Source: a virus. From it: DNA of 64,000 nt. The position numbers and the translations under genes were made by a program. A model generated the notes under the pieces. The model saw only the letters and a list, made by a program, of their open reading frames with translations, searched no databases and was not told where the DNA came from. The stretch covers positions 62,001-126,000 of IMG/VR virus record IMGVR_UViG_3300020469_005214, one strand, 5' to 3'. Below, piece by piece: positions 43,973 to 44,247 of this stretch (positions are counted from its first letter, which is position 1; each line of letters starts with the position of its first letter).

Positions 43973-44016
43973 GTCGTCTCGCCTTGTGGTTAGGGCGAGG
44001 CGACATTTCGCGAAAT
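43973..44016 (+). other. Strong GC hairpin and palindrome upstream of the tmRNA-like RNA
   Basis: GTCGTCTCGCC (43973-43983) pairs with GGCGAGGCGAC (43994-44004) over 11 bp (one G-U); directly followed by the palindrome ATTTCGCGAAAT (44005-44016). May be part of the same precursor RNA, or end the upstream transcript. Confidence 0.55.
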
Positions 44017-44031
44017 ATAAATTAATATTAT

Positions 44032-44101
44032 GGGGGTGTAAGGGTTTCGACTTAAACTATTTAGTTTGAACACGGTGGTTCAACTCCACCCACCTCCACC
44101 A
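44032..44101 (+). ncRNA. 70-nt tmRNA-like (tRNA-Ala-like) RNA without mRNA domain
   Basis: Acceptor GGGGGTG/CACCTCC (7 pairs, with G3-U70), discriminator A and encoded CCA. The D-region GGGTTTCGAC and T-arm GGTGG-TTCAACT-CCACC are the sequences typical of tmRNA rather than tRNA. Between them a P2-like stem TTAAACT/AGTTTGA (44052-44058, 44063-44069) is closed by a 4-nt ATTT loop. No anticodon, tag ORF or pseudoknots. The G3-U70 pair predicts charging with alanine by the host AlaRS. Confidence 0.75.
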
Positions 44102-44109
44102 TTTTATTC

Positions 44110-44225
44110 TTTCCTAGGACGCCCTTGAGATTGGGCCAAACGAAGAGCCGTAGCGTTAATACGGATCGCAATGGGGATTTGCGTGAGGTAGTGAGAAGAA
44201 CTCTGCCATCTCTATTTTTTATTTT
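44110..44225 (+). ncRNA. Four-hairpin RNA ending in a U-rich tract
   Basis: Successive stems: GCCC/GGGC (44121, 44133), CCGTA/TACGG (44148, 44160), CGCAA/TTGCG (44167, 44179), GGTAG/CTGCC (44187, 44203), then TCTATTTTTTATTTTATTTT. May be the 3' part of the tmRNA-like transcript or a separate small RNA. Family unknown. Confidence 0.45.
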
Positions 44226-44247
44226 ATTTTTTTTTGAAAAAAAAGTA

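Follow-up and report, generated by a model that had tools for sequence, protein, structure and literature searches.

A 70-nt tmRNA reduced to its tRNA-like domain in a tailed phage, and a family of similar RNAs in other phages

Known tmRNAs without a tag reading frame

The closest described counterpart of the RNA reported here is the tmRNA of mycobacteriophage DS6A, which consists of the tRNA-like domain (TLD) only (Mao et al. 2009, as cited in PMC4131195 and PMC11915505). Both articles report that tmRNA in E. coli is inhibited by a TLD-only RNA of the DS6A type, and PMC4131195 adds that inhibition occurred with or without the ability to be charged, perhaps via SmpB titration. CDS-less tmRNAs of ~65 bp are reported from Mallomonadaceae plastids (PMC11915505), and in a table of the same article nine of 97,179 sequences are classed as ‘standard, no CDS’. 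The tagless mitochondrial tmRNAs of jakobids and oomycetes (RF02544) usually come from a permuted gene and are thought still to aid with incomplete mRNAs (PMC11915505). SmpB binds an engineered Thermus thermophilus TLD made of 5′ 25 and 3′ 34 residues with a UUCG loop between them (PDB 2CZJ; PMC3929946), and in vitro polyalanine can be made without a template when SmpB and a TLD fragment are present (PMC3929946). The literature searched, which lay largely outside the subscription journals, contained no later account of TLD-only RNAs as a broad class in phages.

The RNA described here, hereafter the mini-tmRNA, lies in a 64,000-nt stretch of phage DNA (the window), bases 62001–126000 of a 141,669-bp IMG/VR record. 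Judged by description, it resembles the DS6A RNA in being phage-encoded, essentially a TLD alone and devoid of a tag frame; DS6A, however, is a mycobacterial phage, whereas the phage of the window has no close named relative at the DNA level (megablast). Likened in the same way, the Mallomonadaceae plastid tmRNAs are also very short and CDS-less, but organellar. The mini-tmRNA shares the lack of a tag reading frame with the tagless mitochondrial tmRNAs, yet it is much shorter and has its parts in the standard order. The 2CZJ molecule, a man-made crystallization construct in which the 5′ and 3′ parts are joined by a tetraloop-capped P2, has the same design, which occurs here naturally. The original prediction that no family like this had been described was thus too strong, given the RNAs of DS6A and of the plastids (~65 bp). 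TLD-only tmRNA is already known as a kind; what is new is the breadth of its occurrence, the existence of two designs and an invariant charging signal.

A TLD-only tmRNA gene in a tailed phage

The record encodes a DnaE-like DNA polymerase, a ribonucleotide reductase, a DnaB-like helicase, PhoH and a phage minor tail protein domain (PF10145), which together identify it as a tailed phage; its DNA polymerase has only distant matches (~31% identity). A search with cmscan gave an RF00023 (tmRNA) match at exactly 44032–44101 on the plus strand, with 49.6 bits against a gathering threshold of 47 and an E value of 1.5e-16. The alignment reaches both ends of the model (positions 1–374) but skips 326 central positions, which are replaced by a P2 stem of 7 bp capped by an AUUU loop. 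The features of the locus are as follows.

43973–44004 (+): 14-bp hairpin of very high stability, lying 27 nt 5′ of the mini-tmRNA (fold z-score -5.93; conserved in the related contig L136)
44032–44101 (+): 70-nt TLD-only tmRNA from the 5′ G to the encoded CCA (RF00023 match, the sole tmRNA match in the record; syntenic in L136)
44032–44038 (+): 5′ strand of the acceptor stem, GGGGGUG, with G3 pairing with U70 (sequence)
44039–44051 (+): linker TAAG and tmRNA D region GGTTTCGAC (sequence and RF00023 alignment)
44052–44069 (+): P2 hairpin TTAAACT-ATTT-AGTTTGA, instead of the entire mRNA/pseudoknot part (sequence; pairing kept in L136 despite base changes; P2 covariation in the family)
44074–44090 (+): T arm GGTGG-TTCAACT-CCACC (RF00023 alignment)
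44091–44101 (+): 3′ strand of the acceptor stem, CACCTCC, with U70, discriminator A73 and encoded CCA (sequence and RF00023 alignment)

Both TLD halves are complete and in standard order. In common with the one-piece tmRNA of RF00023, the mini-tmRNA has the 7-bp acceptor (GGGGGUG/CACCUCC) including G3:U70, the D region (reading GGUUUCGAC), the T arm, A73-CCA and the start of P2, but it has no mRNA domain, resume codon, tag ORF, stop codon or pseudoknots. D region and T arm are separated by just 22 nt, consisting of P2 (UUAAACU-AUUU-AGUUUGA, one of whose seven pairs is U-G) and the junction ACAC; the common GGAC is absent before the T stem. Seven pairs arise in only 0.6% of composition-matched shuffles of the 18-nt inner segment. 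These results agree with the original prediction of a tmRNA TLD without mRNA domain, tag frame or pseudoknots, with a 7-bp acceptor carrying G3-U70, discriminator A and encoded CCA, a tmRNA D region and a T arm; the predicted 7-bp P2-like stem with an ATTT loop joining the halves was also recovered, with an alternative inner hairpin favoured by 0.3 kcal/mol when the window copy is simply folded for minimum energy. The mini-tmRNA lacks the anticodon arm and canonical D arm expected of a tRNA, and Rfam assigns it to tmRNA. ARAGORN reports nothing at 44032–44101, consistent with such RNAs going overlooked.

The possibility, raised by the original prediction as its refutation, that the segment is part of a split or permuted tmRNA was rejected: the 141,669-bp record contains no second tmRNA, no match to the permuted model (RF04321) and no arrangement with the 3′ half upstream of the 5′ half, and neither a tag reading frame nor tmRNA pseudoknots occur anywhere in it. 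Outside the window, the record has no Rfam matches at all. Genes for SmpB, peptidyl-tRNA hydrolase and tyrosine integrase were likewise not found in the record. By its sequence, then, 44032–44101 is a phage gene whose product is a tmRNA with every TLD element and nothing else, and its charging determinants and SmpB-facing elements read as intact.

The upstream hairpin (43973–44004) is possibly a terminator-like or processing element of the mini-tmRNA transcript. Directly 3′ of the mini-tmRNA, about 114 nt of the region 44102–44236 are missing from L136; considered as a partner RNA, this region gave no Rfam match and folds no more stably than its shuffles.

Conservation in a related phage

Contig L136 comes from metagenome 3300027791, the same that contains a relative whose DNA polymerase is 93% identical, and has the same gene order around the mini-tmRNA. 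The two copies of the RNA occupy the same genomic place and are identical at 67 of 70 positions (96%), against 219 of 312 for the upstream and 284 of 345 for the downstream flanking ORF (70–82%), so that the mini-tmRNA is conserved above its flanking genes. The differences are confined to two P2 bases and one loop base, and both P2 changes in L136 keep pairing (U-G to C-G and A-U to G-U). In L136, the tmRNA-type fold is also the minimum-energy fold. This identity in the same place, the retained pairing and the covariation of three helices in short family members described below indicate that the window RNA is not a chance match.

A family of TLD-only RNAs with two designs

IMG/VR and, in one scan, GTDB genomes were searched with degenerate patterns in which a short gap separates the two TLD halves, and matches were required to have a 7-bp acceptor, a 5-bp T stem and A73. 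This search of other phage genomes, which the original prediction had proposed, yielded at least 146 distinct TLD-only RNAs at at least 192 loci, at least 124 of the RNAs being from IMG/VR loci. Since the D motif and GGTTC were fixed by the search patterns, conservation of these two elements is no evidence. G3:U70 was present in all 146 distinct RNAs among the matches listed. One of the patterns left G3 and U70 free, imposing CC71-72 alone of the acceptor, plus A73; among its matches listed, 137 of 139 form a perfect 7-bp acceptor and 5-bp T stem, and every one of these 137 has G3:U70. Acceptor position 4, free in the same 137, can be any of G, U, C and A, and its partner varies to match.

Two size classes are present. 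The short class, to which the window RNA belongs, measures 62–72 nt and has a simple P2 hairpin, while in the long class (78–88 nt) P2 is accompanied by an A-rich internal loop and a small inner hairpin. P2 is a sequence-specific helix in both (4.6 of 5 and 5.5 of 6 pairs, versus 2.3 and 2.6 with arms swapped between sequences). Among short members, covariation is strong in all three helices: in the ten that align without gaps, 98.8% of cells pair, both partners vary in 10 of 17 pairs and none of 500 shuffles attains any of the measures. Long-class members, including those at L164:1579-1660 and L229:1501-1581, have a common internal GAAAGCCGCAYGCGGA-like element, formed of the A-rich internal loop and the small hairpin.

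Phages carrying mini-tmRNAs

Rfam matches and the structure check placed mini-tmRNAs in at least five isolated and sequenced phages: Streptomyces phages LuckySocke, pSt2308 and BRock, Stenotrophomonas virus Jojan60 and Pontimonas phage phiPsal1. GiJojo was added as a further isolate by BLAST. None of these isolate records carries an RNA annotation for the mini-tmRNA, which in LuckySocke, pSt2308, BRock and Jojan60 is housed in a tRNA cluster. SmpB was found in none of 38 further carrier records (0 of 39 including that of the window), so a phage-encoded SmpB partner was rejected, and 37 of the 38 are without other tmRNA; host SmpB must therefore serve. The exception is the record of a 123.6-kb phage (L018), with a mini-tmRNA at G069:46486-46567 and a full-length tmRNA at G069:77588-77979.

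BLAST of the 70-mer against phages returned only partial matches, mostly to tRNA T arms and 3′ ends, and short-class queries gave no isolate with a full-length match. Several BLAST candidates were rejected: BUCTxx99 and PaMx31 have permuted tmRNAs, GMA2 has a full-length tmRNA, and Shandong1, Validus, Squirty, Armstrong and Serratia WSPA have no tmRNA match. The tmRNA/tRNA cluster of Gordonia phage GMA2 also contains a Pistol ribozyme match (L234:1142-1198).

Possible roles in infected cells

The window RNA is presumably expressed; from its sequence we infer that it is charged and, given its conserved D and T elements and by analogy with the 2CZJ construct, that it is bound by SmpB. The original prediction of a decoy is plausible, with a precedent in the DS6A-like RNA. 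On balance, and with some reserve, we favour the reading that the RNA acts as a host-charged, SmpB-bound mimic that would compete with host tmRNA at stalled ribosomes and prevent tagging. Host tRNA-processing enzymes would mature it and host AlaRS would charge it; once bound by host SmpB and EF-Tu-GTP, it would be brought to ribosomes that have stalled without mRNA. Having no resume codon and no tag frame, the mini-tmRNA would be unable to continue translation and thus would vie with host tmRNA for SmpB and EF-Tu as well as for the empty A site, so that tagging would be blocked or diverted and trans-translation suppressed in the course of infection. On the ribosome, the outcome might be a dead-end peptidyl-Ala-TLD, drop-off of the chain or a short tail of untemplated alanine. 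The junction ACAC of the window copy, in place of the common GGAC, counts against this reading.

The invariant G3:U70 argues that charging matters in nature. A bolder proposal, possible rather than probable, is that mini-tmRNAs form a broad phage class that works charged on the ribosome and is not merely an SmpB sponge. The complex of Ala-TLD and SmpB would capture nascent chains on stalled ribosomes, leading to untemplated alanine or a locked ribosome and so reprogramming host rescue. A second functional design would be that of the 78–88-nt class, in which the A-rich internal loop and a CCGCAYGCGG-like hairpin are conserved.

The charged TLD-SmpB complex might instead benefit the phage by taking over the nascent chain, freeing stalled ribosomes and adding at least one untemplated alanine, so that ribosomes are regained without host-type degradation tags. 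The polyalanine synthesis seen in vitro (PMC3929946), the role envisaged for mitochondrial tmRNAs without a tag frame (PMC11915505) and the invariance of G3:U70 among the matches listed are all consistent with such rescue; yet no release step is known without a stop codon, the record has no peptidyl-tRNA hydrolase, and the sole tested relative, the DS6A-like RNA, is inhibitory according to the articles cited above, which makes this rather unlikely.

Simple titration of SmpB, with charging irrelevant and no action on the ribosome, would fit the inhibition described for the DS6A-like TLD in the relevant passage of PMC4131195, charged or not, as well as the absence of SmpB from all 39 phage records. 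If inhibition of that type is independent of charging, as that passage has it, a strict G3:U70 is unneeded for inhibition alone. A sponge has no need of the alanine identity pair; yet the pair is found in 146 of 146 RNAs, and in 137 of 137 where it was not imposed, among the matches listed. This favours competition in charged form, involving EF-Tu and the ribosome, and we regard a pure sponge as unlikely.

A decoy for host defences that recognize or cleave tmRNA or tRNA is very unlikely. The SmpB-like OB-fold domains of CoCoNuT proteins have been proposed to bind tmRNA (PMC11090510), but this binding is itself a proposal and has no direct link to the window RNA. That the RNA is the remnant of a tmRNA gene, or an attachment site from integration at ssrA, is scarcely credible: some phages do integrate there and keep the 3′ end of ssrA, and the T-arm/3′-end BLAST matches in Shandong1, Squirty and Validus adjoin integrases, but this reading is largely refuted by the two intact, covarying TLD halves, by conservation in L136 above the flanking genes and by the absence of tyrosine integrase from 34 of the 39 carrier records, that of the window included.

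Competition in charged form thus stays our preferred reading. With these RNAs, what was a lone phage oddity in DS6A becomes a widespread, almost unannotated class that appears to be aimed at ribosome rescue, and the invariant charging signal frames a testable question: is SmpB only soaked up, or is a charged tagless tmRNA sent into stalled ribosomes? Because several carriers are isolated phages with culturable hosts, testing is practical.

TLD-only RNAs in Poribacteria

An 86-nt TLD-only RNA was found in eight Poribacteria genomes (L147:861-946, L137, L138, L142, L143, L149, L154 and L155). Its place is conserved, with the gene of one protein family just downstream in seven of the eight; in L147, the one genome examined for this, Pfam identifies the neighbour as a PLP-dependent decarboxylase. 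The short TLD-only form occurs in a minority of 59 sampled genomes of the phylum. Six of the eight genomes encode a full-length tmRNA besides the 86-nt RNA, which is thus a cellular TLD-only RNA alongside a normal tmRNA.
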